A stretch of DNA of 64,000 bases, taken from contig CM073322.1 of the NCBI GenBank assembly GCA_037043015.1, positions 18,549,601-18,613,600 on the forward strand, read 5' to 3'. Both the position numbers and the translations under genes were made by a program. Under the pieces are notes generated by a model. The model saw only the letters and a list, made by a program, of their open reading frames with translations. It was not told the DNA's origin and searched no databases. Shown here in pieces: positions 23,342-64,000 of this stretch. The stretch comes from Bryum argenteum (taxonomy: Eukaryota; Streptophyta; Bryopsida; Bryales; Bryaceae). Each line of letters starts with the position of its first letter. Position 1 is the first letter of the stretch.

Positions 23342-23383
23342 TGAAGGCTGGAGAGGCCGAAACTATGGTTTCCTGCAATTTAA

Positions 23384-23744
23384 CCCTTAAACGCCCTTGG
23401 GGTCTAAAACGGGCAGCCCAAAATTGGATCACAGCATCTTTTGGACTTGGGCATCATGAATAGTGCACTTTTTGAACTTGGGCATCATGAATGGACCAAT
23501 CAATGATGAGCTTGCAACCTCCTACAAGGTTATGTACCACCCCAACCTACCTACCACAATCCTCTCAAAGCACAAAATCCTTCATAGAAATTGTGATTGA
23601 ATTGTAAGAATTCACTTTTTGAATGCATCATAAGATGGTGACCAGTTTGACATCAAAATATAAGTAAAAAGTTGAGTACGATGAGAACTACGGAGGAGAT
23701 TCTGTTGGAATCAAGCCCCTCGGGCTTGCTTGGGCGTTTAAGGG
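23384..23744. mobile_element. TTAA MITE, family D copy 1 (361 bp)
   Basis: The element is bounded by TTAA at 23380-23383 and 23745-23748, with perfect 13-bp terminal inverted repeats CCCTTAAACGCCC / GGGCGTTTAAGGG. The interior carries a repeated GGGCATCATGAAT motif and a CCCCAACCTACCTACCAC stretch. A second copy of exactly the same length lies in the opposite orientation at 27379-27739. No open frame of note; it must depend on a transposase encoded elsewhere. Confidence 0.9.
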
Positions 23745-24349
23745 TTAAATCGACGGCCCCTCGACCTTCGGCCATATTGTGAAGTGGCCCTAACTATTTC
23801 ATGCGCATCCTGACCTTACAGTATGGGTAACATGAAGAAATTGATGTAACATGGCTAACTGGTAAGTTATCTACCACTAAGCAGTTCTTCATCCTGTTGG
23901 AATGAGCCAAAAACAGAAGAGAGTGGCCGTTTAAGTTATGCTGGGACCCCTTCCTTTTTGGAATACCATACCGAATTTATATGCTCTTTTATTGGCATGT
24001 CATGGAATAAAGGGGTCAGGGGCCCCCCACCATTCACGCCCTTGTACTTTAGCTTAACCTATATAAAGATAGAACCTTGGATGATTATTAATGGACACTG
24101 CGCAGACTCTATCAGAAGTTAGCCGCCATGAGCATTTAATGAGCAGTCTTTAATTTAGCTTTTACTATGCATTGCTGCCCCAGTCTGTAGAAAGGGTTCC
24201 TTTTCAGTGTGCACCAAGAGCCATGACCAAGAAAATTAAAAAATCATTTTCATGGTTGAGCCGTGATCATGATAAAATCAAAATTGGATTTTTTGAGTGG
24301 CTCGGTCACTCTTGTAGAGTAAAGTGGAATTCGACGGGGAGAAGTTTAA

Positions 24350-25683
24350 CCTCTAAACGACCAAGGCCTCTTCTAAGGAGATTTGTGATTTCGGGCAGCC
24401 CAAATGAAGATATTAAAAGTAATGTTTTGGCCCAAGATTTTTGCTGAATGTTCCCTATACCACAAGGTGTGTGTGGGAAAATTTGCAAAGTCAAACTCCA
24501 CCTCTCGAATTTTTAAACGCAAATTTTAGTTTTCAACCTTGGGGCAGGCAGGAAAAAATAAAATAAATAAAAATAAAAAATAAAATAATGACATATATAT
24601 ATAAATATTGTTTTTTATTTTTTGAAAATATTTTCTTGGTTGATTTTGTACTTAGGTTTCCAAGTGACCCAAGTTGAAACTTCTACCAATCCTACAGGGG
24701 CACCCTTCAAATACTACAATAGCTAGATTTGAAGTTTTATCTGATATTACAATTTTTTCTTTCAAAATTTGCCAAAATTTGGGATTTGAGATTTTTAAGA
24801 AGTTCTTTTGTCTTGAGATTCACAAACTCAAGAAGGTATATTTTCGCCAGGCACCACAAGCCTTGGCTTGGTGGTTAGGGCTTAGGCCCCCAATGAGGAG
24901 GTCGTGGGTTCTATTCCCCATGCCGGCATGGTGCTCACCACTATAGTCCACCCAACTATTGTAGGGGGTCCTTGGACCTTGTTGTATGGGTACCTCAAAG
25001 CCCTTTGGGGGGATACTATGTCAAGTATCTTCAAGGCACTAGTAACTAGGCTAGAAACTAGCGTGGTTATAGTGTCCACCCTCGAGAGGGGGAAGTAGTA
25101 TTGTTCCAATTTCCCCTTGTCCGGTGGCCATCGGGATATTAGCATTACGAACGAACACTTCATTCACGCCGGCCCCCTTAGAAAGGGACCAGAGTTTCTA
25201 TCTATCCATCTATCTATATTTTCGCCATTCCATTTTCCCCCTATACCATATACAATAAACGTGGTGCATGCTTTACCAAATCGGTGATTTCTACCTTCTT
25301 CTAGTAAATTAATTGCATGAAGGTTCAAAAAGAAAAATTAGTGTCTAAAATTCTGCATGGGCATGCTCAACTTAGTTATATACATGGAAAAAAATATGAG
25401 CTAAGTGTTTAAGGTAATGAGCATCATGTTTTACTTTGCACAAAGTGAACTATATTTGTTGGAAAAAATACTGCATCAACTTTGAATGTTACGATCTTAC
25501 AAATGGCAAAGATTGAACGGTTGAAATTTCAGCCACTACCTCTAATAGTAGTTCTCTTTAAGATCATACGGTTTAAAGTTTCAAAAAAGTGTAAAAAATA
25601 TTCTCATACTCCAAAGTTTACAGGGTGGTATGAAATTGCAGTTTTAGAGTTTGGAGCTCACAAAAACCATGGTCGTTTAGGGG
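24350..25683. mobile_element. TTAA MITE, family B copy 1, carrying a SINE
   Basis: The left end is CCTCTAAACGACC after TTAA (24346-24349). The right end is GGTCGTTTAGGGG before CTAA (25684-25687, one change from TTAA). Removing the SINE and its extra target copy leaves about 956 bp, the length of the family-B copy at 43159-44109. The uninterrupted relative at 54964-55478 has a single TTAA (55127-55130) exactly where this element sits, which confirms the boundaries. No transposase frame. Confidence 0.85.
24850..25214 (+). mobile_element. tRNA-derived SINE, full-length copy (365 bp)
   Basis: Flanked by perfect 13-bp target duplications TATATTTTCGCCA (24837-24849 and 25215-25227). The head carries an RNA polymerase III A box (TGGCTTGGTGG, 24864-24874) and B box (GGTTCTATTCC, 24907-24917) spaced as in a tRNA. 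The body ends GACCAGAGTTTC, then a TATC-type simple-repeat tail. Such elements are transcribed by polymerase III and moved by a LINE partner; none is seen here. Truncated relatives lie at 28144-28291 and 44163-44301. Confidence 0.9.
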
Positions 25684-26533
25684 CTAAGCTCAATTTTCTA
25701 ATATAAATTCCCATCATTCTCTTTTTTATCCTCCCCTTTCTTCTCCTTTGTTTTTGAATAGTTGAACACTAGCCAATCAATGACTTTGGAGCCTCATGGT
25801 CTTCTTGATTGTAGTTGAGTCGAGGCATTTGGTTCGACTCATCAGCAGACCATGAAAACATTATCTACTATGAAAAATTTAGCATACTTTGAGGACCTCA
25901 AAGTTAGTGGTCATTCTCCTTTTTTCAAGTTAGTGTAAAGCCAAATGGGACGAAGGGCTCTTTGCTCTCCAATCACTAATTTTAGGAGGTTGTGGTCAAT
26001 CTTCATGGTCCATAGTGTAAAGCAACCCTTAATGAATGGCGAATTTCTTATTTTATTTTTGACCAATTAATGAATTTATCAATTGAGAGAAAAAATACAA
26101 ATAACAGCCCAATTTCTAGTACAGAAAATCTACAAGGAACCCCAATTCCGTTAAAATGGCACTATGCCATGTGCCATTTTGTCACACTAGATCTTACATT
26201 TGTGCTCATATAAAATGGTATATTCTGTAATTCTGCTCACAATTTTTTTTGTAATATCACTTCTTTATATACATTGTCACTCATTTTCCCTAATATCACC
26301 TTACAATTTTGTTATATCACATGGTTTTTGAACTACAATTCAGAAAGTTGAGGTGTGCCATTTTACCGGAATAATACCATTTTAACGGAATTGGGGTTAA
26401 GGATGTAAGTAGTGGAAGTAATTTTTGTATATAGGGAAAATTAGTAGAAAGATAGAGTGAGTGGAATCGTCATCTTTGTACTCTTCTACAATGAGTTATG
26501 AATTTGTGAAGTTAATGATATCGGTGTTCCTAA

Positions 26534-26690
26534 GAGTCGGTTTACACTACGATGGAGAAGTCTACCCGTCAACAAGAAATGAAGGAAGTTTTTTGAATGC
26601 GATTGGTTGAAAATGAGACTCTTGAAATGTGATTGGTTGGAAATGTAATGACCGAGCGGAGGCCTTTTTCACTGTAGTGTAAAACTGCTC
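26534..26690. mobile_element. Small Tourist-like MITE (157 bp)
   Basis: Ends GAGTCGGTTTACACTACGAT and TGTAGTGTAAAACTGCTC are imperfect inverted repeats, and TAA is found at both borders (26531-26533 and 26691-26693). A 3-bp TAA duplication and GAG/CTC ends fit PIF/Harbinger-type MITEs. The segment at 56697-56857 is a relative. Confidence 0.6.
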
Positions 26691-26892
26691 TAAAATTCTA
26701 CCCTAAAGTGACACCCTATAATGTGCTGAGTACATTGTAATATCAAATGGTGAAGCTATTATTTACCTTTAAGTGAAGATCACTAGAGCTCCACTTGCTC
26801 CTTTTTAGACCACTCTATCATAACTCTCTCGGTTCAATTTCGCACTTCGTGTCCATATATTTGTATTGACTATTGTAGGAATATCACCTTAA

Positions 26893-28025
26893 CCCCTATA
26901 CATCCCTAGAGTCGAAAAACAACATTTTGGATGAAGGGCAGAAACTTTGAAGAGCCATTACTTCTTCATCCAAACTCCGTTTCTCAGGAAATCACTTGGG
27001 TTAGGTCACAAATCAAGTCTAGTTTATGTGGTAAAAATTGCAAACTCATAGAATAAAGTATGAATAAATGGCATGGATTTTAGTGAAGGCACCTTTTGTT
27101 TTGTGAAAGAGTTGGGAATACATTGTAACGGTGTGAAGATATTTGTAATTGTTGATTACTTTGAAACGAGTTAAAAATGTACTCCTTCTAGAAGTCCCAA
27201 AAAAATTGTTTAGTTGTAATCTTCAGTAGCAAAACAAGGTACTTGAAAGTATCTAATCCCTTAATAAGTTATATGTCAAAAATCAACATATTGGATGTCA
27301 AGTTTAAATTTTGAAGAGCCATAACTTCTTAATATCAACTCTGATTTTGCCAAAATATGTTGAAAAATGACAAATTAACCCTTAAACGTCTAAGGTGACC
27401 CGAGGGGTCCTTTTCCAACAGAATCTTCTCTGTAGCTCTCAATGTGCTCAACTTTTCACTTATATTTTGATGTCAAATTGGTCACCTTCTTCTGATGCAT
27501 TCAAAAAGTGAAATTTCACAATTCAAATCACAATTTGTATGAGTGATTTTGTGCTTTGAAAGGATTGTGGTAGGTAGGTTGGGGTTGTACAATACTTGTA
27601 GGAGGTTGCAAACTCATCATTGATTGGATCATTCATGATGCCCAAGTTCAAAAAATGCACTATTCATGATGCCCAAGTCCAAAAGATGCTGTGATCCAAT
27701 ACTGGGCTGCCCAAATCCGTATATCTAGACGTTTAAGGGTTAAGTCTAGTTTTTGTGGTTAATATAGCACACCTCTTTAAGATGGTATGAGTTTATGGCA
27801 TGAATAATAGTGAAGGCATTATTTGCTTAAGGGTTTTTAGACATGAGGCATGTATTACCATTGTAAATCAATTATGCAAAATTATAGTTAGTTCTTCATG
27901 AAGTTTCTTGCATTTCGTATACGTGATCTTGAGATGAATCCCAACAACTTTCTACGTAAAACGCTTCCGTTCCAGATGATTTTGGCATTGAATTTGTATA
28001 GTGATTTTTCTATAGAGAAAAAAAT
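26893..28025. mobile_element. Family-C TTAA elements, two overlapping remnants
   Basis: A left end CCCCTATACATCCC after TTAA (26889-26892) starts a family-C copy that is cut short near 27240. A second left end (CCCTTAATAAG at 27258) starts another copy, which continues past the nested family-D element at 27379-27739 and fades near 28025. Shared motifs with the intact copy at 62734 include AACTTTGAAGAGCCAT and AAGTCTAGTTT. No coding frame. Confidence 0.6.
27379..27739. mobile_element. TTAA MITE, family D copy 2 (361 bp), nested
   Basis: Bounded by TTAA at 27375-27378 and 27740-27743, with ends CCCTTAAACGTCTA / TAGACGTTTAAGGG (14-bp perfect). It has the same length as copy 1 at 23384-23744 but opposite orientation. 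It sits inside a family-C element: the flanks join as CAAATTAAGTCTAG where intact family-C copies read CAAATCAAGTCTAG. Confidence 0.9.
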
Positions 28026-28046
28026 TAATTTACACATTGTTCTAAG

Positions 28047-28560
28047 TCCCTAAATGTCCTTCGTATTTTAGCCAAAAAGTCATTTATTAAAAAGTGTTAT
28101 AGATGAAAATAAATATAAGCTATCTACATCTCAATCGTACAAAGATAGATAGATAGAAACTCCGGTCCCTTTCCAAGGGGCCGGCGTGAATGAAGTGTCC
28201 GTTCGTAATGCTAATATCCCGATGGCCACCGGACAAGGGGAAATTGAAACAATACTACTTCCCCCTCTCGAGGGTGGACACTATTCAACCATACAAACTA
28301 GTAATATACTTGATGTAGATCATGTGGATCAAAACTTGACTAACGGGACCTCATAAATTACAAGATCATGCGCAAAGCAGGCTACAAAATACCATCATTT
28401 TCACTTTGAAGTGAAATACTACCAACATGAAATTTGCAATCAAAAATCATTAACTAGGAAGTTTTTCATCTATATCTCAAAGAAAATTTTGTAACCAAAA
28501 ATTTCATTAAAAAAATATCTTGGCTCAAATAGATACCTTGCAATGGTGAGTAAATCTACC
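28047..28560. mobile_element. Family-C TTAA element remnant, inverted, with SINE insertion
   Basis: Begins CCCTAAATGTCC and follows the reverse orientation of family C (compare 30408-31371: shared GTGTTATAGATG-like and CATTTTCACTTTGAAGTGAA motifs). It is interrupted by a truncated SINE at 28144-28291 and fades out near 28560. Confidence 0.55.
28144..28291 (-). mobile_element. SINE copy 2, 5'-truncated
   Basis: The reverse complement of the last roughly 145 bases of the SINE at 24850-25214, including GTCCACCCTCGAG, CCCCTTGTCCGGTGGCCATC and the TATC tail. It is flanked by a short TACAAA duplication (28138-28143 and 28292-28297). It lacks the A and B boxes. Confidence 0.75.
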
Positions 28561-28595
28561 TATTTAGTGCTTAAATAGAAACTACCATAGTGTTC

Positions 28596-28700
28596 ACTTC
28601 AAGAGGAGGTAATAATCCCACCATCCCGACATACACCCAAGAATAGGTCAAACGGACACTCCGCTCACGCCGGCCTTAAAATAGCCGGAGTTTCTTCTTC
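28596..28700 (+). mobile_element. Diverged SINE tail
   Basis: Shares the order GAGG.GGTAATAATCC, ACGGACACTCCGCTCACGCC, GGCC and CCGGAGTTTCT with the SINE 3' half, but with many changes. Probably an older subfamily member. Confidence 0.45.
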
Positions 28701-29803
28701 GTACGAAGGCCATATTTAACCCAAATAGACATACACTATTCTATGTCCAAATCTTATCTTCCACGCACCCACCTTGTGGAAACAAAACAAGCATGGCATG
28801 AGCAGAAAGTCATTCTCAATGAAATACCCACAAGAATGGAATTCTGCATGAGGACTGTCATTCCATAAAACAATTGATTGAAGCCTGTGGCACCTTTTGA
28901 ATAATTGAAACTAGCATGTCTTCATCACTTAAGTTACATGTACACCATGCACTTAAAGCAGTCAATTTACCAAAAACCTAAATTGCTTTCTAACTCTACA
29001 TTTCTCAACATGGGCTTCTATCCCACATTTTCAAACTTTTGGGCTCATTTGCAGCCACATAACTTGTGTCGCAAAAAAACAATTCGTACACGAGATGTTG
29101 TACCAACCTGGATTCTTTCCCTCCCCACCACATGTTCGGATCGTACTTTCCGGCACGTCCGCGGAGTATTAAATTTTAATGTAAGGGTGTTACTCCAATG
29201 TCGGATCGTGTTGACATACGATTTCTAGAAGGATTTGGTTACGTGCCTAAAAGTGGAGGTAGATTATTTCACATTACTTAAGGAGAAACCAATGAGAGGA
29301 GAATTCAAGCTTTACTCTTTGGAGAAGATGTCAATGATGTTTCTTCTTATTTAGAAATGGACTAATGTTGAGTGACCATAAGATGAACACGACATGATTT
29401 GAGTCATATATGTAGTATAGTAGAGTTTTTAAACCAACTTAGTTTTATGTAGTCCCTGCATTCGATATCAAGCGCATATTTGCTTTGCATTTTCACTTCT
29501 TTGCATTCAATCTTGCTTAATTTTTGAAATGAGTATTGAACAACTTGTAGATGAAATTTTGTATTCCATTGTTACTTCTACAACAGGCTAGTATATATTG
29601 AGTCGTCTTTGTTTATCTGAAAATCTATGTTTGAGTCTACAAAACTTTGAGAATAATTTTGTGTTTAGATGGTGCTTCAAAATTTTGCTATCAGCATGAC
29701 ACAAACATAGCCATCTTTAGGTAACAATACGTCCCAATTGTATAATATGAAATACTATGTCATGTCTCTTCTAATTTAAAAAAAGTTAGGTGTAAGCTTT
29801 TAA

Positions 29804-30064
29804 CCCCTAAAGATCCAAGAAAGCCGAAATGGCTTTTTGGGGTTTCCGCAGGAAAAAAAAGTCAGCCAACTTTGACCTTTATAATCTCAAAATCGGAAAA
29901 AAATTAACGGTTCAAAATTGACATATGAGTATAGGGTCAAGTTCACTTCAAGATCCTACGGTTGGATCTTCTAATTAATGCTTAGATTGAGTTTTTTCGG
30001 GCCTGAAGTAGAAGAGGGTCCTTTGTGATAATTTAGACAATTTTGTATCAAGGATCTTTAGGGG
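29804..30064. mobile_element. TTAA MITE, family A (261 bp), intact
   Basis: Perfect 13-bp inverted ends CCCCTAAAGATCC / GGATCTTTAGGGG are bounded by TTAA at 29800-29803 and 30065-30068. Related copies are 16731-16989 and, inverted, 50353-50611. Confidence 0.88.
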
Positions 30065-30407
30065 TTAACATGGTGTGAGGGTCATTATTTCTTGCTACTA
30101 GCAAAAAATCATGATATCTACTTCATGATGTGTTGATTTTTAGAATTAAAGCTTTGTATAAAACCTTCCAAGTAATGCAAGGATTGCTTATAAAGTCCCC
30201 AAGATTGTATGATTTGTCTAGCTGATGAAAGTCATAGGTTGTTCTTAATCGCAGAACATCATTTTTTCCCGAGTGTCAATCATGTAGATGGGAGAGACTC
30301 AAATCTTAATGATAAAATCTTGTAATAGAATCATTTTCAATGGTGTTGAATGAATTGGCCGTCATAAAGCGACAAACATTAAGACATCATATCGTATCAT
30401 TACTTAA

Positions 30408-31371
30408 CCCCTTAATGATTTGACTAATTTTTAGCATAAGAACACGTTTTTTTAAAAGTGTCATAAATAGAAATAGAGTCAAGCTACTTAGACCTCAACC
30501 CTACAATCTTTTAGTAAACATATAGCAAATCATGTTGGTCAAATTTTGAGCCATGAGCCTCATAGATTGCGAGATTGTAACATATTTGCACTCAAAAAAA
30601 CTTCACAAAATCTCAATACTATATTTTGAAATGAAAATGCTACCAACAGACTTATTGCAATAAAAAAATCACCAACTACAGAGATGTTTGCCTTCATCTC
30701 AATAACACTTTGAACAGAAAAATACCATTAGAGAAATTTCTTTGAGCAAATTTTGGCCTTGCATGATACTTTGCTTCAGAATCTACAAAAGAAAAAATGC
30801 CCAAAACAAGGCCCATTGCATAAAAATGAATGTCATGACTACCTCACACCTTGGATTAGCTGAAGGTTTCAACTACAAAAACTAAATTTAAATAGGATTT
30901 CCACCTAACAAACAAAATTCAACTCCAACAATGTTGTAATGAGGAATTTTATTTTCAAAAACCATGTTTTCTTTTCAGTTTTTTCACAAAAGAAACATCA
31001 TTGCAAATCTACTATCTAAACTAATCAAGAATCTTTTGACAAAATAGTTGTTGGCTTTCACCTTAAAATCATACTTATGCAAAAACCTTTATGAAAAACC
31101 AAAGTGGATTTCACATAATTAGCTTGTAATTAATGAAAAACATGCCACATGTTTGAAAACCCAAAACAGAGAGTTGCCTTCACTAAATTGCATGCAGTAA
31201 AGCCATACTTTATTGTATGGCTTTGCATATTTTACCACACAAAATGAACTTAATTTGGGACCCAATCCAAGTGACTTCATTCAAACGGATTTCAGATGGA
31301 GAAGTTATGGTTCTTCAAGGTGATGCTTTTCATCCAAAATATCATTTTTCAACATTCAGTCTGTTTAAGGG
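30408..31371. mobile_element. TTAA MITE, family C (964 bp), inverted orientation
   Basis: Bounded by TTAA at 30404-30407 and 31372-31375. Ends CCCCTTAATG and TGTTTAAGGG are partly diverged. The interior aligns in reverse with 62734-63704 and 48953-49915. Reading frames are broken and there is no transposase. Confidence 0.8.
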
Positions 31372-31478
31372 TTAAAAGTCTTTGAAATTTCATCTCTTTT
31401 ACTATTGATTTGAAATAATATCACAATATATATGCTATCAAGAAAATTCAACCAAAGGTTTGTTTGTCTACATCTTAA

Positions 31479-32029
31479 CCTCTAAAACCAAAAAGGGTTA
31501 TTTACAATTTTGGGAGCTTAGATGAAGGTGTTAAAAGCAATAATTTTGCCTCGTTTTTGTATTGGGTGCTCCTTCAACTGCAAAGTGTATGTAGTAAAAT
31601 TTGCAAAGTTATAGTCTAATTTTCTTGTCTTTTAGGACAATCCTTGGGGTGTGAGCCAAACCGAGGCAGCTTAAAAAAGTAAATTTTTGAAATATGTTCA
31701 CAACTGAATCACTACGTAAGTTTTAAAGGGTCATAGGTCAAAAAATTTATCAAGTTTACAAGGGCAACCTCCACAAGTTTCAGAAACAATCTTGGCCATG
31801 CCCAAAATAACTTGGGAGACAAACTTTGAATGTTATGATCTTTGAAATGATAAACATCCAATGGTTAGTTTTTGGAATAGTAACAAAAGATAGTTTTAGG
31901 TCCAAGATCTTATGGTTGGGAGTCCAAAAAATAAAAGAATAACTGCTTCACACCTCCATGAGTGCATAGAAGTAGAAAATCACATTTTTGAGGTTTCAAG
32001 CTATCAAAAAACACCAAGGAGCTTTAGGG
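31479..32029. mobile_element. TTAA MITE, family B (551 bp)
   Basis: Bounded by TTAA at 31475-31478 and 32030-32033; starts CCTCTAAAACC and ends GGAGCTTTAGGG. Shares family-B motifs such as GGTGTTAAAAGCAATA and the terminal GAGGTTTCAAGCT. It is shorter than the roughly 955-bp copies, so it has an internal deletion. Confidence 0.75.
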
Positions 32030-32136
32030 TTAAACGCACCGTAGTACGAATAAATACTATGAAATAACAATAGCCTCCTAATAACGTAACACGCTGTCCG
32101 GTTTTGGGCCCCTTCATTTGAAGGGAGCTCCCGTCC

Positions 32137-32172
32137 CGTAATGCGATCTGCCCTCTAGAGAGAGGGCATTAC
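32137..32172. repeat. GC-rich hairpin
   Basis: CGTAATG and GCCCTCT are followed by AGAGGGC and CATTACG, giving a stem of two paired blocks with a small side bulge. A short GC-rich island in AT-rich DNA, and the first of two neighbouring foldbacks. Confidence 0.55.
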
Positions 32173-32883: not shown

Positions 32884-32994
32884 CTAGTAAGGTGCCCCTC
32901 GTCTTGACGGGGAAGCTCTTTATATGGTACTTTTGAAAAAGTATCCTGTGCATACCATTTCCTCAAATAGTACTATGTTTATTATTTTTACATA

Positions 32995-35141: not shown

Positions 35142-35455
35142 ATGACGTTATTGGTTCGCCGTGCACCATATCAATGACGTCATCGGTACGACGTGCGACA
35201 TATCAGTGACTTGTACGCCGTGCGCCATACTAGTGACGTTATCGGTACGACGTGCAACATATAATGACATTATTGGTACGTCGTACGACATATCAGTAAT
35301 GTTATTGGTACGTCGTGCGGCATATCAATGACGTTATTGGTACGTCGTGCTGCATATCAGTGACGTTATTGGGACGTCACGCATCGTACCAATCATTTTA
35401 GTGGTATGTCATGCAACGTACCAATCATTTTAGTGGTATGTCGTGCACAAAGCAA
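35142..35455. repeat. Minisatellite, about ten units of 32 bp
   Basis: About ten tandem units built on TGACGTTATTGGTACGTCGT plus GCGGCATATCAG, with 70-95% identity judged by eye. Units near the right end shift to TCATTTTAGTGGTATGTC. The unit core GGTACGTCGTGC is partly palindromic. Confidence 0.85.
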
Positions 35456-36777
35456 CGTAATGTTGACGTTAATTGCTTACAACACTGCCAATATATACTT
35501 TTGGCATTTTTACTCCATTTAGAAACAAAAGCTTGCCTTTTAAGTTTTTAACTTGAAGAATGTCCATAAATTACTCAAGTTAACATTTTGTCTTTCAATT
35601 TCAAAAGCTACTTACTACATGGCAACTAGAGACACTCTCCTTTGGTCATCCCTACAAAAGTTGGCTCACTAAAGTTGCACGTTCGTTCCTTCCCGGCAAA
35701 AATAAGCACTTGCCGAAAAATTCGAAAACTCGAAAATCCCGTGGATGAAAACGAAGATCCAGAAGCTTCCGTTCAAGTATCGTACATCCAGACGGCCATT
35801 TTCAAATCTGAGAACCGTTCTCATCAGCGAAGGGATGGATGGAAGTCTCGAATTTACAATTCCCGCCCACCCGTTCTGTTCAAAAAATAAAGGGCGGGTA
35901 GCCTGATCACGACGTCCCGGGCAGCTCGGGGTTATGGGAACGAAACAAACTGTGCGGTGCCCTACGAGGAAGGGAGCGAGTACCGAGGTTTGGGGGACGA
36001 AGAAACTAGCTGACGTCGACGAAGAAGACAACGAACAAACAAACGAAACCAAACGAAAACGAAGGAGAGCGGGCCAACCCAGCCATCCAGAGAGCGCTGA
36101 GAGCAAGAGAGCCTGTGCAAGAGACTAGAATTGGGGATGTAGGAGTCGGCGAGCGATGCGGGGCATCGATTGCGCCGCTTCTGCCTTGGATCGCTACCCC
36201 GTCCGTTACTTGATGAGCTTTTCCCGTCCCCCTAAGATGCTACCAGCCATTTTCCCTTCATCCAGGGGTACCAACGGGCGCTTGTTCTCAGATGAGCGAG
36301 CGAGTGCGTCGCTAGCAATTTCCCTATCACCTCTTACTGCGCTCTTCTCTCATTTCAAACCATTCCAACCTTCCCACACCCCGTAGGGTTTTTCTAAGAT
36401 TTTTCCTGCCAGTAATTTCTCTTGAATGCATTTTCTGGATTCTTGAGAGGGGTACGAAGCGAACTATCGCTGCTTTTTCGAGCGGCTTCGGATCTTTGTC
36501 GTTGAGAGCAGAAGGCTGGATTGCTGCGGATCGTAATTGTCTGAGAATGCGAGTTCTGGAAGTGTGAGATTAACGAGAGTCAGCTTTCGTGGTGTGAGAT
36601 TGACGAGAGACAGTCTTCGAGCTTGGTGGATTTTCGAGCGTTTTATTGGCAGAGGAGACGTGGTGATTGGGTTTGCATTGGCTTTTTAGTAGTGTTCCGA
36701 GTGTGCAAGAAAATTGTGTGCTAGAATGACTCTAGTCTGACGCGGTAGTAGCGATTGTTGGAAGCTCGGTAGTGACA
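35456..36777. other. 5' flank of the VIM-like gene
   Basis: AT-rich to about 35650, then distinctly GC-richer up to the start codon. Open frames in 35640-36390 lack domains and overlap antisense frames. This is most simply promoter plus a long 5' UTR. No defined promoter element is claimed. Confidence 0.45.
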
Positions 36778-43154: not shown

Positions 43155-43158
43155 TTAA

Positions 43159-44109
43159 CCTCCAACTATCCTTGAAGACCAAAACGGTCTTTTGCTATTT
43201 AAGCAACCTAGGTTTTTGGGTCAAAATTAATATTTTTTACTAAGATTTTTATTGTGTGTTTCGTATACTACAAGGAGTGTGTGCAACAAATTGCAAACTC
43301 AAATTCCAGTTTTTGAATCTTCTAGTGCATTTCTCAGGATGCAATCCAAGATGAGTCAATTTGAATTTTATTTTCTTTTAGATTTCTTATTAAAAAAAGA
43401 AAGAATAAAAAAGAAGGTTCATAACCGAGTCACTACTCAAATTCCAAAGTGATCCAAGTCAAAAAGTTTACCAATTCTACATGGTCACCCTCCAAAAGTC
43501 ACATAAACATAATTTTTTATTAATTTTTGATTTATTTCTTTCAAGATTTGTCAAGATGTGAGATTTTGGAATTTTCAAAAAAACATTTTTCTCAAAAGTT
43601 ACAAATCTTTGAAGACACCTAACCACCATTCATAGTTTCAAAATTTAATATTGTCATCCTACAAAATATAGTTTGCCAATTTTGCATATCTTAGGGAAAA
43701 TTTAACCTCCCTCTAGAAAATTATATTAGTTTCTACCTTGAGAACATTGGGAAAATCCTAAGTTATTGCATGTGCAACTTAGTTACCTACATGGCAAAAA
43801 GATATGAGCAAAATGTTTGGGGTGACAATCATCAACTTGCCCTTTGCACCACTCAAAACACACATCCCGTGCAATGCCCCCCCCCCCCCCCAAGAAATTG
43901 CTGCAACTTTGCACGTCATGATCTCACAATAGATGAACATACAACGATCAATTTTTGGGACGATACCTAAAAATAGGGTTAGTTAGAAAAAGTTGGAAGT
44001 TAAAAAAGAAGTTAAGAAAAAAATTGTTACATACTCCCTGGAGTCCATAGAGGTTGAAGATTGTAGTTTTGAGGTTTCAAACTCCCAAAAACACAAGAAA
44101 ATTTAGGGG
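43159..44109. mobile_element. TTAA MITE, family B (951 bp)
   Basis: The left end is CCTCCAACTATCC after TTAA (43155-43158). The right end is AAAATTTAGGGG before TTGA (44110-44113, one change from TTAA). The interior aligns with 24350-25683 without its SINE: shared GGAGTGTGTGCAACAAATTG, CATGGCAAAAAGATATGAGC-like text and a final GAGGTTTCAAACTCCC. A C10+ run lies near 43877. Confidence 0.75.
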
Positions 44110-44162
44110 TTGAACAAGATAAATTTGTAGAGTCTGAAGTGAGACATGAAAATGTAGTTCAC

Positions 44163-45384: not shown

Positions 45385-48079
45385 TGTATGAAACTCAAAG
45401 CTATCTTGATTCTACAACAATCAACCATCAACAATCTTGACATTGTCCTTGATATTTTGTCATGATGTTGAAATTTGTTCAAAGAATTCCAACATTCTAC
45501 TATAATTGTAGACTCCTTTGTGCGCAAGAATCTGCACATTTCAAGTTAGTATTTCTGGTTCCTGAACAAAAACCACTAAAATGAGAGAATGATTGTGCCA
45601 TCGGGGGAATGCATAGTCAACCATTTGATTCTTCCAAGATGCAAACACAATACTGCATTGTATGGCATGAATAAGGTAGACAATGCTAAATCCGTGCATC
45701 TCCTTAAACCACCCACTCTAAATTCTTGCCTACTTTCTAGATTTCATGTAGAAGAATGTACCTCATGTGCACATGGAGCATGTGAACGGTTTAAGGTAAT
45801 GCGGTACATATCACTTCTGAATTTTTTATTTATTTTTATAAGTGCTTAAAAAATATCACAAGATATAGAAACTTCTTTATTTTTTCATATTTATAATTGA
45901 AAAAATATTGATCCACATATTCTAACTTTCCAATTGTAGTGTAGTCCTTAAATGGACGGATTTAGCATGGTTTACCTTAACACATATTTCGTTATAATGG
46001 TAACATTCACTGATTTTGAGAAATGAGAGTTTAGCTCGAGTCGAGCTAAATGTACCCACAAAGTACATTTGGCTCAACTCAAGCTCAATTGTCATCGATT
46101 TGATAATTTGAATATTCTCATTGTGACGAATTAGGTGTTGAATGCACAACTTGAACATCCTAAGTCAAAATACACATGCCGGATTTCATGAAGCTGGTAT
46201 TTTTTGGTGCAGATTGGCGCACGGTTTATGTATTAACTTCATGCGGCCGTTCGTTCGAACCCGAGAAAGGCAACTCCCACTTATTATACGAAGGTTTGAT
46301 AATGTATTCTTTTACAAAATACTATGACTTTATCACTTATGATTGTGATAATATATAGTTCATTAGAAAGTAGGCATTAAGAGCTCTAAGAATATGTATT
46401 GTGTATATCAAAAATGTTTATCTATAATTTGGTATGACATAAGATGTTTTGTTATGCAGGGGTGTGAGGACAAGAAGGTCATCAAATTTTAAGACATATT
46501 ATAAAATTTATTATAGAAATAATAAAAATAAAATACATAATTAGGGCATAATAAATGCATAATAAGGTTCTTCACATAGAAATAGTTGTATATATGTACA
46601 CTTCAAATGAATCTCTCTGATGTATTTGTGTATCAATACACTTTGTTTAGTTGTTATACATCTAAATCGTACAAAGTTATAATAAAGCATAGTAAGATTC
46701 TAATTATTAGAAGATTTGAATTTTTGTCAAAAGAAGCATACTATACATTATTATAAATGGAATAACAAGTCTAAATTGACTTATTATGCCACACATGCTT
46801 GCCAATAATAAGTAAGTTGCCTCCCTGGGGTTTCGGTACCAGGGTTTGAGATCTTTTTTGACTTTTACTAACGCAATTCCCCCACCCAATTGGTTTTTCA
46901 CACATCTCTTCCGACAATTGCATAATTTTATACTAGGATTAGAAATTTATTTGTAAATTTCATAAGTTTTTAGCCAGTGGTTTCATGAATGCACCGACCA
47001 GTGTGCTAAATCCATCGGCTGATAATAAACTAGCCGTTGGTTGTTCTTGATCAATGTTTGGCACTTCTTGGGTGCAAAACCTCATTTATTTTTTGTGTCC
47101 AAATGTCTCATTTTACCGAAAGTGATAGATGAACCACTTTCTGTTGTTTTCTAGCAAGTGTGGACACAACGACACCCCAATCAGACGTTGACTAACGGAC
47201 GCTGCTCGACCATTCAGCAATTGCAATACAAAAGCTAACTCATGATTGCTAGCTCATGGCAGTTCTCGATCGAGGAAGCCGACTCCGAAGGCTCCTTCGG
47301 AAGCTTTCGGAGTCAGTAGTTATCTCCATTGCTTTCTCCCACTGCTCCATGTACTCGTTTTTTCTTCAATTATTCCGGAAAGAGACTTCCCAGCTCATGG
47401 CATCGCTTAATAATGAGTAGCCAGCAGATTGGATGCACGCTCAAAAGCTGAAAACAACACCATTTGTCTGAAAGCTTGAACCCCTGTTGTCAAGCGCTTT
47501 AGGAATACTTGAAGTGGTGGAATGAGTGGCTTACTACTATTCAATGATTAGTAGAAGGAAGAGATTGAGTTTCCCAGTGTTTTAAACATTTACATGAATA
47601 ACTACAGATTTTAGAAGTGCTCACTAACTTTCTCTAGCAAGAAGTCTCAAAATGAGAGTTTTAAAGTCTTGTGCACTCACGGCCATGTAAATCATTTTCT
47701 TATCACCGATTTTAAACTTCCAACCGTAGGATCCTGTACCTTATTTGCTTTTGAGTTGTTGTTGAAATTTTCAAATGTTGGATCTTCTCCATTTGTGAGA
47801 TTGTAAGGTTTGAAGTTTATGCAAAAGTTTTTTTTTTTTTGGCCATTGCCTGAGACACATAGTGTAGATGGTGCTAAGGGCAAGTTGAAGTTTCTTACCC
47901 CAAACATTTTGGGCATGTTGTTTTTCGTGTAAGTCATCAAGTTGGCTACGCTCATACAAAATTTTAGAGACTTATTGTGCTTTTTTGCCCTTCATGCAGA
48001 TTATTTTCTAGTAGAAGGTCTGAAAACATGGATATAGATAGAACATGCGATTCACTAAATATATCTAGTTCAACCCTAA
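45385..48079. other. AT-rich spacer
   Basis: No supported gene. The stretch 47680-47960 resembles family-B/A MITE interior in reverse orientation (AACTTCCAACCGTAGGATCC, CCAAACATTTTGGGC) but lacks clear ends. An imperfect hairpin is listed separately at 46030-46088. Confidence 0.45.
46030..46088. repeat. Imperfect 26-nt-arm hairpin
   Basis: Arms 46030-46055 and 46063-46088 pair at 22 of 26 positions around a 7-nt loop (CCACAAA). Best-matched core: AAATGTAC / GTACATTT. Confidence 0.65.
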
Positions 48080-48685
48080 CCGCTAAAAGCCAAATGTACT
48101 TTTTGATGTTTTGGGCAGACCATATGAAGGTGTTAAAATCAATATTTTTGCCTAAGGTTTTTTATGAGTGTTCCTTATACTAAGGAGTGTGTGCAACCAA
48201 TTGCGAAGTTGATTTCCAATTTAGAGTTTTTAAATGCAAATTTTAGTTTACGCACTCAAGGTGGGCAGAAAAAAACCCGTTTTTATTTTTAAAACCTTGA
48301 GTTACAAAAACCTTTTTTTCTTCTTTTTGGAAATTTATACATAATTAAATCATTGTGTGAGTTCCAAAGTTAGGGCTCTAAGTCAAATTGTTTACCAATT
48401 CTACAAGGGCAACCCTCAAACTTTACAAGAGCAAGCTGTAGAGCAAGCTTAAAAGTTCGAGTAGAAACTTTTGCACAAACCTTGGATATCACAATCTTGC
48501 AAATGATAAACATTCAACAGTCAATTTCTAGACTAGTGACTAAAAATAGTCTTGTTTATAAAATCTTACCGTAGAAAGTCTTAAAGGAGTTAGAAAATTT
48601 GGTTCACACTCCCGGGAGTACATAGAGGTAGAAAATTGGAGTTTTGAAGTTTCAAGCTCCAAAAACACACAAGGAAATTTAGGGG
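48080..48685. mobile_element. TTAA MITE, family B (606 bp)
   Basis: Starts CCGCTAAAAGCC after CTAA (48076-48079) and ends AAATTTAGGGG before TTAA (48686-48689). Shares GAAGGTGTTAAAATCAATAT, GGAGTGTGTGCAACCAATTG and the terminal GTTTCAAGCTCC with the other family-B copies. Confidence 0.72.
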
Positions 48686-48952
48686 TTAATCAAATATTGA
48701 ACAATGAGTAAGTGGTCTTATGAGTATGTGATTTTTGAGAAGAAAAAAAAATGGAAAATTTCCAAAGTCTTGAATTCTGGCATATTCTGTAAGAAATAAC
48801 TCAGAAATAACTAGAAATTGTAAATATTGTTTTTGTAATATTTGGAGGCTGCATCTGTGAAATTGACAAACTTTTTGACATAGGTCACTTTTCAACTTGA
48901 CTAAAGATTTGGTTAGTAAAAGATTTCTTGAAATAAAAATAAATAAATTTAA

Positions 48953-49915
48953 CCCTTAAACGCCCAAGATGCCAAAAAACGATATTCTAGATGAAAGGCA
49001 AGAACTTTGAAGAGGCATAACTTCTTTATCTCGACTCCGTTTTGGATAAAATCACTTCGGTTGGGTTTCAAATCTAGTCTAGTTTGTGTGGTAATTTTTG
49101 CATAAATGAAGTATAAATAAATGGCGTGCATTTTGGTGAAGGCAACTCTTTTTTTGAGTTTTCAAACATGGGGCATGTTTTACTGTTGGAGGCAATTATG
49201 AGAAATCAAAAATAGTTTTTCATGAATGTTTTTACATAATCATGATCTTAAGATCAAAATTAAACAACTTTGTAGTTGGAAGGTTTTTAATCCACATACT
49301 TTTGGTATTGGATTTTCAATGATGTTTCTACGATGGAAAAATTGAAAAAGTGGATGATTTTTGAGTAACTATATCTCCTTCATCCGCCGTTGGATTTCAA
49401 CTTTGTTTTTTGGAATAGGTTTAGAATAGAGTATAGTTTAAGTGGTAGAAACCTTGACCCAATTGAAGGTGTCTTGAGGATAAGGCAAGAATTTGAGTGC
49501 AAGGCGTGTAGATTTGGACCCTTTTTCCTTCGTAAATATTTAGGCAATCTCATCCTTGCAAGGTCATTATTTGAGTCAATAATTTTTTTGATGAATCCTT
49601 TTTGTAAAATAGTGTTGTTGAGATGAGGCTGAACAACTTTGTAGTTAGTGAATTTTTCATTGCAATATGTTTGTTGATAGCATTTTCACTTCAAAGTGAA
49701 AATGTTGAAATTTTGTGATCTTTTTTGTGTACTAATATGTTAAGATCTTGCAATCCATAAGGCCTCATGACTCCAAATCAGACCCACATGACCTACAACA
49801 AGTATACTACAAGATTGTGCGGTTGAGATCTAGATAGCTTGCCTTCATTTTCATCTATGACTCTTTGCAAAACATTATGTTTCTATGCTCTAGACCCCCT
49901 TTGGGCGTTTAAGGG
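48953..49915. mobile_element. TTAA MITE, family C (963 bp)
   Basis: Perfect 15-bp inverted ends CCCTTAAACGCCCAA / TTGGGCGTTTAAGGG. TTAA is at the left (48949-48952) and TTGA at the right (49916-49919). The interior aligns in the same orientation with 62734-63704. An open frame of 78 codons at 49390 has no transposase features. Confidence 0.87.
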
Positions 49916-50045
49916 TTGAACTTAAATTGCCCTTTGTTCATTCTAGAGTTGAAACCTAAAGTTTTGAGATGAAGGTTCTATACTCGAATTTGTTTACCAC
50001 CTACATTTTGTGGTTAAAGGGGCACCTTGTAAAACATTTAGGCGG

Positions 50046-50093: not shown

Positions 50094-50352
50094 TAACCCT
50101 TTAAATAGACTGCCAGAAATTCCAAGAACCCATTTTGGCTTTTATGGATACTTAGGGGTAAAGGGATACTTTATATGGGAAGTCGAGGTGTACTGTACAC
50201 GGGGCCAATGGAAACAAAAATCCTCTCAACGTGATTGGGCCCCTTTTTGTTGTTAAAGAAAAATCCAATCACATAAGGAGGATTTTTTAATTTCATCGAC
50301 TCCATGTACAAATCAGTTCTCTATGTAAAGCATTCTTAAGGGTAGATATTAA

Positions 50353-50611
50353 CCCCTAAATTTCCTTGTCGCAAAACAATTTAAGTCACAAAATTTGACC
50401 TTCGTCTGGATTAAGCTCAGAAAATCTCAATCTAAGCATTATTTAGAATATTCAACCGTAAGATCTCAAAGCTCGCTTGACATTTTTCTCACGTACCGAA
50501 TTTGAACCGTTCATTCTTCTTCATTTGTGAGATTATAATGGTCAAAGTTGGCTGAGTTTTCTCCTGCGGGAACCTCCAAAACCTGTTTCGGGTTTTAAGG
50601 AAAGTTAGGGG
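50353..50611. mobile_element. TTAA MITE, family A (259 bp), inverted
   Basis: Bounded by TTAA at 50349-50352 and 50612-50615. Ends CCCCTAAATTTCC / GGAAAGTTAGGGG are inverted repeats with one mismatch. The interior is the reverse orientation of 29804-30064 (AATATTCAACCGTAAGATCT, TATAATGGTCAAAGTTGGCT). Confidence 0.85.
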
Positions 50612-50615
50612 TTAA

Positions 50616-55478: not shown

Positions 55479-55703
55479 TGAAGGTACTTTCTCACTTGGC
55501 TTTGCTAATAATGTTCCGAGGAGTGTTGTAAAAATTATCAACAACTAGAGGTCCAATGTGTTTCCCATTTCACAATTGCGGACTTCACATCTACTAAAAA
55601 ACCTTATTTAATTATGATACTTCCATCCAAGAGTTGTTGGATTTCAATGAAAGAACACACTAGTATAAAAGAAACATGAATAAAGCAAACAATGTCAATT
55701 TAA

Positions 55704-56310
55704 CCCCTAAATGGTTTGACTCATTTGTAGTAAAATGAACACATCCTCAAAAGCATTGTCATAGGTGGAGGTAAAAGTGTGTTATCCAAATCTCAACCGT
55801 ACAATCTTGTTGTAGACATATTGAACATCATGTGGGTCAAATTTTGAGTCATGAGGCTTCATAGATTGCGAGATCATAATGTATTAATACTCAAAAATGA
55901 TCACATAATTTCATCATTTTCACTTTAAAGTGAAAATGCTACCATTAGACTTATTGCAATGAAAAAGTCACCAATTAGAATGTTGTTCACCTTCATCTCA
56001 GTAGCATCCTTGAACAAAAAAAAACCATGAGAAAAATTTCTTTGTGCAAATTATGGCCCTGCAATGGTGAAAACTGCCCTAAATTCTACAAAGGAAAAAA
56101 TGTCTAAAACTAGGCTGTTGTCACTGAAATGCATGCCATTAATTCATACTTCATTGTGTGGGTCTGAGATTTTTATGACATGAACTAAACTTGATTTGGG
56201 ACCCAACCCAAGTGATTTCGTCCAAAACGGAGTCCGGATGAAGAAGGTATGGCTCTCCAAAGTTTCTGTCATCCAGAATGTCGATTTTCGACATTCGGCC
56301 CGCTTAAGGG
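55704..56310. mobile_element. TTAA MITE, family C (607 bp), inverted, internally deleted
   Basis: Bounded by TTAA at 55700-55703 and 56311-56314; ends CCCCTAAATGG and CCCGCTTAAGGG. The interior is the reverse of 62734-63704 but lacks about 350 bp. Confidence 0.8.
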
Positions 56311-56696
56311 TTAAAGAAGTTGACAAAATTTCACAAAGAAAGTCAGTGGCTAGGTTCTTTATATATAAGCTTCTAAAGGTACTCCTGCTCAAAATTCCTA
56401 TTATTTTTTTACATATATTTTGTTCTCCTGTAATTATTAGTTTCCAATAAGGCTTTTAAATTTCTCTACAGTCATATACATTTTTGAAAAGAAAGAAAGA
56501 AAGAAAGAAAAACAAATTCCAAGTTACCCAATGACAAGTACACTAGTGCATATGTGATCTTGGTAGAGGGAACGAGTAGACCCAAAGTAACACAAAAGAT
56601 CCAAGGATATAAGCTTGGGTCCTTTGTGCCACTTGTGGCCTACTTGTTCCCTTTATTCAAGCCACACATGGACTATGGACTAGTGGTAGGATTGAG

Positions 56697-56857
56697 AATC
56701 CTTTACACTCTGATAGAGAAGTCCACGAATCTAGAAATTAAGAAGAAAATCTCAAATGTGACTAGTTGAAATTAAGGTTCTTGAATGTGATCGGTTGAAA
56801 ATGAAATTCTCAAGCGACTAGTAGCCTTCTCCACCGTAGTGTAAACCAGCTGTTACC
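56697..56857. mobile_element. Small TIR MITE related to 26534-26690
   Basis: Ends GAATCCTTTACACTCTGATA and CACCGTAGTGTAAACCAGCT are imperfect inverted repeats. The interior shares GTGATCGGTTGAAAATGA-type text with the copy at 26534. Confidence 0.5.
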
Positions 56858-57749
56858 ATTGTGATGATTAGGATGAGTGGATTGACTTCCTATACACTCT
56901 ATTTTTAGACACTCTATTTTATGTCAGCAAGTTAGGACAGTGCACACGATCAATACTGTATGCTGTACGTAAGTGTAAGTACAAATCGGTGGTGGGGGAA
57001 CTGTGGAAGCACTGTTGCGGAAGGAAGGATGGTCGTAGATAGCATGATGAAATAATAAATTATTGAAGTACGCGAGTGCGAGCGACGGAGGTCGGCAAAT
57101 TTGGAGTTACCAAGTACAACAGAAGGGATCCAATCCTTCCCATGTCTGTCTGCGCGGGCCCGGGTGGAGGCAGTGAAATCGGCGGCCCTAGCTCCCGGCC
57201 ATCCTACGGCGCGCACGCCTGGCGCGTCGGCCGCTGCGAAGTCCGGTCCGATTGTCACGTCTCCTACTCGCCTGGCCTGGCCCCGGCCCCTACCACTAGA
57301 CTTCCTGCCTGGGCCCCGCAGGCTGGCATTTTGGCTCTCCGCTCCGCTCCGCTGCACCTTTGCACCCGCACCCGTTGGTCAACCGTTCCTGGAGTTCCCA
57401 GTTTCGCCCATTTCGACCTCCTCGTGCTCCGCATGCTTCCTCTCCCGCAGCATCTGCCACCCCTGCACACGTCCGAATCCCTTTCCAGCCCCCCCAGTTC
57501 CCATTTTGACCTCGGTGCACCCGCAGCACCATCCCAGCTCCTTCTCCCAGCTGGCTAGCTTCATCTGTTTATCTCTCCCTTTTTTTTTTCTTTTTTTTGA
57601 AAATCCATCACCTTTGTCCCTGCTGTCTGGCTCGCCATTACTGCTACCGGCCTCGTGTGTTCCTCTCTCAGAATGGTGCTCACTCGTTTGCAATGGCGAT
57701 GGTGAATGCCTGATTGAATGAAGCGGATTGTGTTGTCCGTAATGTCTGA
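56858..57749. other. 5' flank and GC-rich leader of the IRKI-like gene
   Basis: The first 200 bases are AT-rich. From about 57060 to 57740 the sequence is GC- and CT-rich, with pyrimidine tracts (57576-57598), as in a long 5' UTR or promoter. Frames of up to 206 codons here are Pro/Ala/Ser-rich by composition and overlap antisense frames, so I do not call them genes. Confidence 0.45.
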
Positions 57750-60644: not shown

Positions 60645-62733
60645 CGCCAATTTAGTTTAGTTCGTTGCGGTGCATGACTCTTCAAGTCCTGCCAGCATAC
60701 ATACAGACAGTTACACACATATTGAGGATCGGTAAGCAGGTGGTGATCACTCTGTTCATAATTCTTTTTTGTCTGCGAGCAATATCTTGGAAAGATGATC
60801 TTCTGAGCCATGAGCTGCACGCTAATGCGTGTCTCTCTCTCATCGGGCGGCTGACCTGACACTGTACACAACCCTTTGTAAGCTTGATACCACGGATTAA
60901 TCCAATTCTTTTCTCCTAGACATTGAGCTTACTCTTCTCCCTTGCAATCTCTAAGGCCCATTTGTGATGCTGCATTGCACATTGTGAGCACAATGGTGAG
61001 CCAGACCTCGAATCAAGTCCCATTTGTGATGTTTCAGTGCTCAGTGTGAGCCTCCACCACTCCCCTTGCGCACACCTATAACTTTGATATTGCATGCAAT
61101 GTCACATGCATGAGCATCTGTACTCATGCATGTGACATTGCATGCATGTTAATTGAACATATATGTTCACGAACTACGTGGTCATGCTCAATTACCCTGC
61201 TAGTGAGCTCTTTACAATCATGTGTATTGCATACAAGAATTCTCCTTGTTCAGTGTCAAATTCCTCGAAATTTCCCTACTTAGTCGTCGAATAAAAGTGT
61301 CCAAACCTTCAGAACCCAGAGCCTGCAGAGTTGAGATCTGAGAATCCTGGTTCTATGAGGCTAGCTTCCACACTTGATCAAGTCGGTGCTGTCGAGGTGA
61401 TTGTATTTGCCTCAGTAGCTAGTTCGTGATTCGAGGTGGGCGTAACAAAGCAGGAGGTCAATCTTAGAACAGGGAATCAGTTGCAGGGAATGTGAGTCAG
61501 ATGCCTGGATTATACTGTAAATGAAGCTGTGAGGTGTGCGATCGCTGTTATTATTACTATTTCCGTGTCAGGGAGAATGTTGAAGCCGCCCAATAATGGT
61601 TCGCATCGTCGTTGAGCTAGCGCTCCAAGTTCAAGGTCCAGAATACCTCTGAAAGTTCGGAGTCGATTGCCAGCAAGTTTGGGAGCTTCTAAGATGATCG
61701 TTGATCTGCTCCAAACCGATCATGCCAAAATGTGTTACTTGTCAAAGCAGCAATGAGTTGTACTTGCTGTTATAAATCTGTTAAAAGCGCCTCTGCAGTT
61801 CACCGAACTTGCAAGTGGGACAGAGGATGTATATCCAAATGGATCGAGCCTTAAACCCTGAAGGACAGATAAACGCTCAAATTAGGGCAACTGAACCCTT
61901 GATTTGGGCAGTTGTACTTTGAAGAATTAAAACCTTGATTAATACAGTTAAACCTTCACATCTCATAGGGCGGGTAATTCTTGAAGTGCAAGCATATTTG
62001 GCCTTAACTCATTCGATCTCTCCTTCCTCAGGTACAGTTACGGATTAATTAGAAGGCCTCCACCACTGCTCCCTGGTGTGTGTATTGTTACCATTTTTCT
62101 CAATATTTTCTCATTACCAGTGAACTTACCGGATAGTTACTCAATTTAGATTCAGTGCTCAAAAAATAGTTTCTTTTAACAATCAACGTATTTATCATTC
62201 GAATAATACATCTCAACTATAGCACTGACTTGCCTGGAGAAACACAGAGAAACAGAGTTAGACATTCATGGAGGGGTAGATGAGAGTGTAAGAAGAGAAA
62301 GTTCAGGACTCTAGGGTGAACGCATGCTAGATCCATATAATTTTTTTGCAGATATGTCCGGTACACAACAATAGTTTTTCGTCATTGTGTACACTGAGTA
62401 CACATGCATGACTACCTGCAACCGTCGGATTACAACAATAAAAGCTCCTGAAGTTGAAGAGTTCCGATTGATTGCGTTGGATGATCCAGTCTGAGCGCGT
62501 CGAGAAGTCTGATATTGTGCAAAGTTTGAATTCAATTTGGAGAAGATTCATTGTCACGTACATTGAGTTTGGAAACTAAAGAACAGAATGTCTTGGTGGC
62601 AAGTTCAAGAGAGGGAATGGATCCAATGCACCTTTTCTGCCACGTGACTAGAGAATGAACTTCATCCTTTAAAAAATGCATATGAATTTTTTGCATAGAT
62701 AAACCTATGCTCCTCCACCATGTATAAGTTTAA
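60645..62733. other. Spacer downstream of the IRKI-like gene
   Basis: No supported gene. It contains the perfect palindrome at 61091-61146. The rest is mixed-composition DNA with short frames lacking domains. Confidence 0.45.
61091..61146. repeat. Perfect palindromic hairpin, 24-bp arms
   Basis: Arms 61091-61114 and 61123-61146 are exact reverse complements around the 8-nt loop CATCTGTA. The arms contain the CATGCA (RY-like) hexamer several times: the left arm begins TGCATGCAATGTCAC and the right arm begins CTCATGCATGTGAC. Confidence 0.92.
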
Positions 62734-63704
62734 CCCCTAAACGTCCCCAATGTCGTTTTTCTACATTTTGGATGGAGGGCAGAAACTTTGAAGAGCCATA
62801 ACGCCTTCATCCAAACTCCGTTTTGGATGAAATCACTTGTGTTGGGTTCCAAATCAAGTCTAGTTTGTGTTGTAAAATTTGCAAGCCCATACAATAAAGT
62901 ATGAATTAATGGAATGCACTTTAGTGAAGACAACTCTTGTTTTTGGGTTTCCAAGCATGGGGCATGTATTACCATTGCAAGCCAATTATGTGAAATTTAA
63001 AATAGTTTTTCATGATTTTTTTTTCATGGTCATGATTTTAAGGTGATTCTTAACAACTTTGTAGTAGAAGTTTTTTGATCCAAATGATTTTGCTATTGGA
63101 TTTGCAATGATGTTTTGTCAACAGAAAAAGTGAGAAAATGGATGATATTTGAGGAGCTATATCTCCTTCATTCACCGTTGGATTTCAACTTAATGTTTTG
63201 GGATGTCCTCCAATTAGAGTCTAGTCTAAGTGGTAGAAACCTTAACAAGATCAAAGATGTTTTGAAGATAAGGCATGAAATTGAATGCAAAGGGTCTAGT
63301 TTTGGACTATTTTTCCTTTGTAAATTTTTTGGCAGCTTTTACCATTGCATGGCTTTTATTTGAGCCAAGAAATTTTTTTGATGAATTTTTGTTGGGTAAA
63401 GGACTTATTAAGATGAAGGTGAACATCTTTCTAGTTGGTGACTTTTTCATTGCAATAGGTATATTGGTAGCATTTCCACCTCAAAGTGAAAATGATGAAA
63501 TTTTGCAGTTTGTTTTTAGTATTAATATGTTATGATCTCCCGATCTATAAGGCCTCATGACTCAAATTTTGGTCCACATGATCTTCAATAAGTCTATTAC
63601 AAGTTTGTACGGTTGAGATCTTATTAGCTTTTCTTGATTTTCATCTATGACGATTTTTATGGAGATGTGCTTTTATGCTAAAAATAGGCTGGGACGTTTA
63701 GGGG
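62734..63704. mobile_element. TTAA MITE, family C (971 bp), intact
   Basis: Perfect 14-bp inverted ends CCCCTAAACGTCCC / GGGACGTTTAGGGG are bounded by TTAA at 62730-62733 and 63705-63708. It is the best-preserved family-C copy here. Frames of up to 86 codons lack transposase motifs. Confidence 0.9.
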
Positions 63705-64000
63705 TTAATTTGGATGAATTATGGATGAATTTTAATGACCTTTTATTATCATACATAATTGGTAGGAAGGAATACATGGAACACATATATTTACTCTAAA
63801 AAGGCAAGTGAATAATTTAATAATTATTCTCTGCATTCATTATACGGGCTTATAATGTGGATTTTAATTGTATATAAATTTTGAACAATGCATATTAATG
63901 TGGGGCTATTGTTTGATGTCATTGTCAAATTTTTTTCTAAAATACTTATCATGGCCATCCTTTCTACTAGATAGAATCATAGTGTAGGATTTAAGATGAC
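63705..64000. other. AT-rich end of window
   Basis: After the TTAA duplication the sequence is AT-rich with no recognisable feature. Confidence 0.4.

Follow-up and report, generated by a model that had tools for sequence, protein, structure and literature searches.

TTAA-flanked miniature elements in a plant genome as probable non-autonomous members of the piggyBac superfamily

The subject of this report is a 64,000-nucleotide stretch of DNA (the window; C2:18549601-18613600 in an assembly of 25 contigs and 258.8 Mb) that carries a set of short, TTAA-flanked repeats with CCC-type ends. It is proposed, with a probability of about 0.96, that these repeats are non-autonomous miniature inverted-repeat transposable elements (MITEs) of native piggyBac-superfamily cut-and-paste transposons, whose full-length elements of ~5.2-5.8 kb encode piggyBac-type DDD transposases. 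TTAA-flanked copies elsewhere in the genome, empty sites with a single TTAA, and DDE transposases lying within elements that share the ends of two of the MITE families (D and C) all support the piggyBac-type reading that had been made from the window's letters alone. C-numbers denote the contigs of this genome, and L-numbers are labels of stretches retrieved from it.

Self-comparison of the window was used to group the elements into families A, C and D and a further set labelled family E here (Table 1). The sequence-only reading had distinguished four families, A to D; A and D hold up, the latter at its length of 361 bp, whereas B and C proved to be a single family with 70-78% identity. Family B as a separate family is ruled out, its element at 30404 being a 71% relative of the family C element at 62730. 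Thirteen elements had been described as starting with CCC(C)TAAA or CCCTTAAA, and seven do so exactly (23384, 27379, 29804, 48953, 50353, 55704 and 62734). The other six do not: 30408 is close (CCCCTTAA), 24350, 31479, 43159 and 48080 open with CCT or CCG, and 16731 opens with ATCGGAAA. TTAA had been noted on one or both sides of each; it is found on the left of 11 of the 13, the exceptions being TCAA at 16731 and CTAA at 48080, and on both sides of eight, and only 16731 has it on neither side. The right end of the element at 24346 was not found in the window sequence. Inverted ends of 13-15 bp are perfect in five of the ten elements measured, and those of the remaining five are imperfect, with 14 of the first 16 positions paired in the element at 50349 and 5-10 of 16 in the other four, which are strongly eroded. 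The pattern TTAACCCYTAAA matches the window 13 times, against a mean of 0.02 and a maximum of 1 in 100 shuffles; TTAA occurs at 0.47% of the window positions, and its presence on both sides of an element by chance is expected in about 2 of 100,000 cases. As had been stated before, no transposase is visible in the window.

Flanks were read for the best 30 genome hits each of families D and A, the window queries 23380 and 29800 included, a sample in which young intact copies are over-represented. An alignment of at least 50 copies with their flanks had been suggested as the check on TTAA duplication; with 30 copies per family, TTAA stands on both sides of 29 of 30 D copies and 27 of 30 A copies, and the 10 bases beyond it have nothing in common. 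CCC is present at 118 of the 120 ends of these 60 copies and is missing only at the left in L011 and L040. Including both TTAAs, the copies measure 369-370 bp (D) and 267-269 bp (A) with a mutual identity of 95-100%; the mean pairwise identity is 98.1% for D (8 identical of 435 pairs) and 98.9% for A (14 of 435), values that come from best hits and are biased towards young copies. The sampled D and A copies are thus short, uniform, high in copy number, bounded by terminal inverted repeats (TIRs) and without a transposase gene, the features by which MITEs are recognized. Family C gave 47 genome matches, 40 of which, by coordinates and scores only, span all or nearly all of the element; the window copy is one of them (100%), and the other 39 score 97-98%. 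Exact 17-base ends occur genome-wide 1405 times for C (704 on one strand and 701 on the other), 1746 times for A (859 and 887) and 3298 times for D (1666 and 1632), against 0 occurrences of the reversed control patterns. Matches to the MITE families are spread over contigs C1-C11.

Contig C1 (44.1 Mb, 17% of the genome) is strongly depleted of these ends, with 60 of the 3298 for D, 85 of the 1746 for A and 38 of the 1405 for C, counts that assume the lists to be sorted and complete for C1. It also holds 5 of the 116 scored transposase places described below, and may be a sex chromosome or heterochromatin. At L034 (C2:2293745-2294480) two family D copies adjoin each other with one TTAA in common, which suggests that the TTAA of one copy served as the precise insertion site of the other.

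Empty sites were sought by joining the two flanks of each of 70 elements and aligning them with all retrieved sequence; 19 alignments that span the junction, drawn from 10 elements, were displayed. An uninterrupted homologous site with a single TTAA is seen in 8 of the 19, covering 5 of the 10 elements. In L028 a D copy lies inside a C element, and uninterrupted versions of this site exist in L059 and at window 63171-62931 (93%). Single-TTAA sites were further found for L067 in L014 (95%), for L048 in L014 (89%) and in the window (87%), for L046 in two window stretches (74-78%), and for L015 in one of two window stretches (84%). The empty sites are related repeats and not excised donors; they indicate that TTAA is the target sequence and is duplicated upon insertion.

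The piggyBac DDE domain (PF13843, DDE_Tnp_1_7) was found at 116 scored places of 775 candidates in this genome and in none of 14 control genomes. A search for a piggyBac DDE transposase bounded by the same ends as the MITEs had been put forward as a further check, and such a transposase was found for families D and C. The family D partner (L002 and L069, C1:23339974-23345172) is a TTAA-bounded element of 5199 bp with TTAACCCTTAAACGCCC at both ends and an open frame of 897 residues, in which PF13843 is recognized at 1.4e-82; the similarity of its ends to MITE 23380 covers 40 bp (85%) on one side and 34 bp (91%) on the other. The family C partner (within L073, C2:7740885-7746675) is a TTAA-bounded element of 5791 bp with an open frame of 1058 residues, and its two ends have 45 bp (80%) and 18 bp (100%) in common with MITE 62730. 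A third TTAA-bounded transposase element, of 5286 bp (L008 and L074), has differing but similar ends, CCCCTCAAGGCCCATG. Family A has the common end pattern, and at the same spacing from its right end it carries a 91% match to a 34-bp block located ~90-122 bp from the right end of the family C partner. The elements combine a duplicated TTAA target and TIRs of the CCY type, with which the TIRs of the piggyBac superfamily begin, with PF13843 inside elements that have the same ends (D and C). What looked like a second end within L001, L002 and L005 (TTAACCCCAAATTCC) turned out to be coding sequence. The upstream end of the L005 element was not found within 2.6 kb (L070), and a search for a relative in viral contigs gave 44 pattern matches, of which 0 were confirmed.

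Five transposase lineages (L002, L003, L006, L008 and L073) are mutually 33-40% identical. The first three catalytic aspartates are invariant in all five and the fourth is present in four, with A in L003; a Cys/His-rich C-terminal domain is seen by eye in four of the five and is altered in L003. The L002 protein aligns with the piggyBac transposase of T. ni (PDB 6x67, 2e-29) with D at the aligned catalytic positions, presumably D268, D346, D447 and D450 in the T. ni enzyme, and its alignment with piggyBat of Myotis lucifugus (PDB 9c0f, 7.7e-24) continues into the Cys-rich C-terminus. The five frames bearing PF13843 span 867 to 1187 residues when read from stop to stop, so that their initial parts may be untranslated. 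Ahead of the region common to the lineages, each frame has ~320-560 residues that align poorly from one lineage to another, and no Pfam match was found in the N-terminal part of the two frames tested.

The ends of T. ni piggyBac begin with CCC, as they do here. The elements described here also resemble it (PDB 6x67/6x68) in the TTAA duplication and in the aspartates at the catalytic positions; unlike it, they have a plant host and frames that exceed its 594-residue chain, with a long lineage-variable N-terminal part. Their TIRs of 13-15 bp resemble those of piggyBat, which are simple and measure 15 bp; the T. ni ends are complex, with internal repeats, both as described in passages of PMC8086355. 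PiggyBat, with its 578-residue chain, is also the enzyme with which the alignment reaches the Cys-rich C-terminus, and differs from the present elements in its mammal host.

Several observations weigh against the assignment to piggyBac. The ends of several window copies are eroded, and 1 of the 30 D and 3 of the 30 A best-hit copies deviate from TTAA: L011 has an altered left end, and the family A copies L040 (TTTA/TTAT), L058 (CTGG/CTAG) and L060 (TTAT on both sides) have other tetramers. For L060, a homologous site with a single TTAT occurs at window 63017-62778 (78%) and one with TCAT in L054 (77%); the window homologue shows the pattern that would be expected from a rare non-TTAA insertion. 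Eleven of the 19 empty-site comparisons either show a tetramer other than TTAA or cannot be read. Additional homologues of L048, L067 and L015 carry a tetramer with one or two base changes, the weak empty-site matches of the element at 27375 show TCAA in place of its TTAA, and the joined-flank alignments of L043, L057 and the element at 48076 are too diverged to be read. For the second D copy, 27375, the similarity to the 5199-bp element extends no further than 14 bp at each end. The ends of MITE 23380 resemble those of the 5791-bp element as well (88% over 25 bp and 84% over 31 bp), indicating that the ends are alike between families and that MITEs and partners are not paired exclusively. Finally, no full-length partner with family A ends (CCCCTAAAGATCC) was found in the genome.

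The alternative that survives best accepts the piggyBac origin and holds that the amplification of the MITEs is a past event and that no functional transposase is left today; we consider it a serious contender at somewhat below even odds. The stops in 23 of the 116 scored DDE domains speak for it. The other 93 are free of stops, a proportion read from the best candidates of the 775 and hence biased; the five long frames with PF13843 and the near-identity of the sampled, youth-biased D and A copies likewise argue for enzymes that may still work. We infer that the burst of MITEs was probably recent, that the genome's piggyBac transposases probably move the MITEs in trans, and that they may be active at present. 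We propose that a transposase from the full-length elements would bind the CCCYTAAA ends and excise the element via a TTAA hairpin, and that the excised element would be inserted at another TTAA, which would thereby become duplicated. Excision is accordingly expected to be seamless, given that the piggyBac transposase is described in passages of PMC7351741 as forming TTAA hairpins at the element ends and inserting at TTAA. A wider picture, which we rate as an even bet, is that of a moss with several deep, native and possibly active piggyBac lineages, which have seeded thousands of near-identical MITEs, are largely kept off the largest contig and would be excised without a footprint, unlike the plant DNA transposons so far described.

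It is very improbable that the MITEs derive from Kolobok, Sola3 or some other superfamily that duplicates TTAA, and that the piggyBac genes of this genome are unrelated residents. TTAA duplication alone is not specific to piggyBac, Kolobok and Sola3 using this target too, and no full-length partner was found for family A. TTAA-bounded elements with the D and C ends enclose two piggyBac transposase genes, and a third gene lies in a TTAA-bounded element with a similar end (L008/L074). A Kolobok or Sola3 origin is rejected for families D and C on the ground that the same ends surround piggyBac genes; no search aimed at Kolobok or Sola3 transposases was made, for these families or for A.

The plant host assumed in the sequence-only reading is borne out by chlorophyll a/b-binding genes in the genome, with domain matches on contigs C2-C9, and by GIL1/IRKI_C, PHD, RING and SRA domains in the window, the first of which we take to be plant-specific. 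The best structure match of an LHCII protein was 9vfj (LHCI-2 chain, 620 residues; 543 bits), followed by 8htu (466) and 7xqp (464), presumably from Physcomitrium patens, which rank above presumed seed-plant chains such as 8c29 (446). Among plants, a moss is the most likely host. That the assembly or some of its contigs are not of plant origin and that the elements stem from animal or fungal contamination, animals and fungi being the groups in which piggyBac is best described, is practically ruled out by the spread of the elements over C1-C11, eight of which (C2-C9) also bear the chlorophyll-binding-domain matches, and by the domains named above in the window itself.

Both the superfamily and its mechanism are already known; what is new is the abundance, the youth and the host of the elements, which are well supported as members of a known superfamily in an unusual host. 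PiggyBac elements, familiar from insects and mammals, have received little description in land plants. PiggyBac appears among the superfamilies of angiosperm MITEs in a passage of a MITE review (PMC10004981); those elements are likewise short, non-coding and found in plants, and are named there by superfamily only, whereas the elements described here have partners with transposase frames. In another non-seed plant, the fern Ceratopteris richardii, the part of PMC6890710 concerned reports PiggyBac-labelled repeats (1230 entries, 122,417 bp), a repeat-annotation label, in contrast to the genome studied here, with its open frames for transposases and its exact ends in the thousands. Plants are named among the hosts of piggyBac in a passage of PMC8086355. 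The word piggyBac is absent from a 2022 review of land-plant transposable elements (PMC9033089), in which plant TIR transposons comprise six superfamilies, and in the one moss-genome paper found with the word, PMC10619864, it is used for piggybacking. Judged by titles, abstract openings and passages, no description of native piggyBac elements in a moss was found among the papers listed by searches of the open PMC library. The combination of abundant young elements and open frames makes natural seamless transposition in plants directly testable, as well as the silencing of piggyBac by plants and the use of the moss enzyme as a native genome tool.

Table 1. Elements identified in the window, with positions counted from its first nucleotide.
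Feature	Positions	Strand	Description
Family D MITE	23380..23748	+	361 bp plus TTAA each side; perfect 13-bp TIR CCCTTAAACGCCC
Family D MITE	27375..27743	-	361 bp plus TTAA each side; 89% to 23380; within family C-related sequence
Family A MITE	29800..30068	+	261 bp plus TTAA each side; perfect 13-bp TIR CCCCTAAAGATCC
Family A relative	50349..50615	-	73%; 259 bp plus TTAA each side
Diverged (decayed) family A copy	16736..16993	+	71% over 262 bp; without intact ends or TTAA
Family C MITE	62730..63708	+	971 bp plus TTAA each side; perfect 14-bp TIR CCCCTAAACGTCCC
Family C relative	48949..49919	+	963 bp; TTAA left, TTGA right; perfect 15-bp TIR
Family C relative (earlier family B)	30404..31375	-	964 bp plus TTAA each side; 71% to 62730; eroded TIR
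Internally deleted family C relative	55700..56314	-	607 bp plus TTAA each side
Another family C copy, left part	26889..27103	+	83% to 62730; TTAA at left end
Family E element	31475..32033	+	551 bp plus TTAA each side; ends CCTCTAAA / CCCTAAAG
Family E element	48076..48689	+	606 bp; CTAA left, TTAA right
Element with family E right end	43155..44113	+	TTAA left, TTGA right
Left part of a family E-like element	24346..24558	+	TTAA at left
Family E relative (decayed)	20383..20690	-	73% to 31721-32029; without intact ends

A TTAA-bounded stretch of 524 bp at window 18392-18915, with the ends CCCGTAGAGGA / CCCGTGAAGGA, possibly represents another family. Three related small frames (window 7708-8214, 11137-11538 and 12716-13114) lie in repeats and have, by eye, a signal peptide-like start; no Pfam match was found for the one tested. 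A tandem array with a unit of ~32 bp occupies window 35143-35464. Outside the window, C2 and C5 carry dozens of clustered partial chlorophyll-binding-domain matches (about positions 31-161), which we take to resemble expanded ELIP genes.

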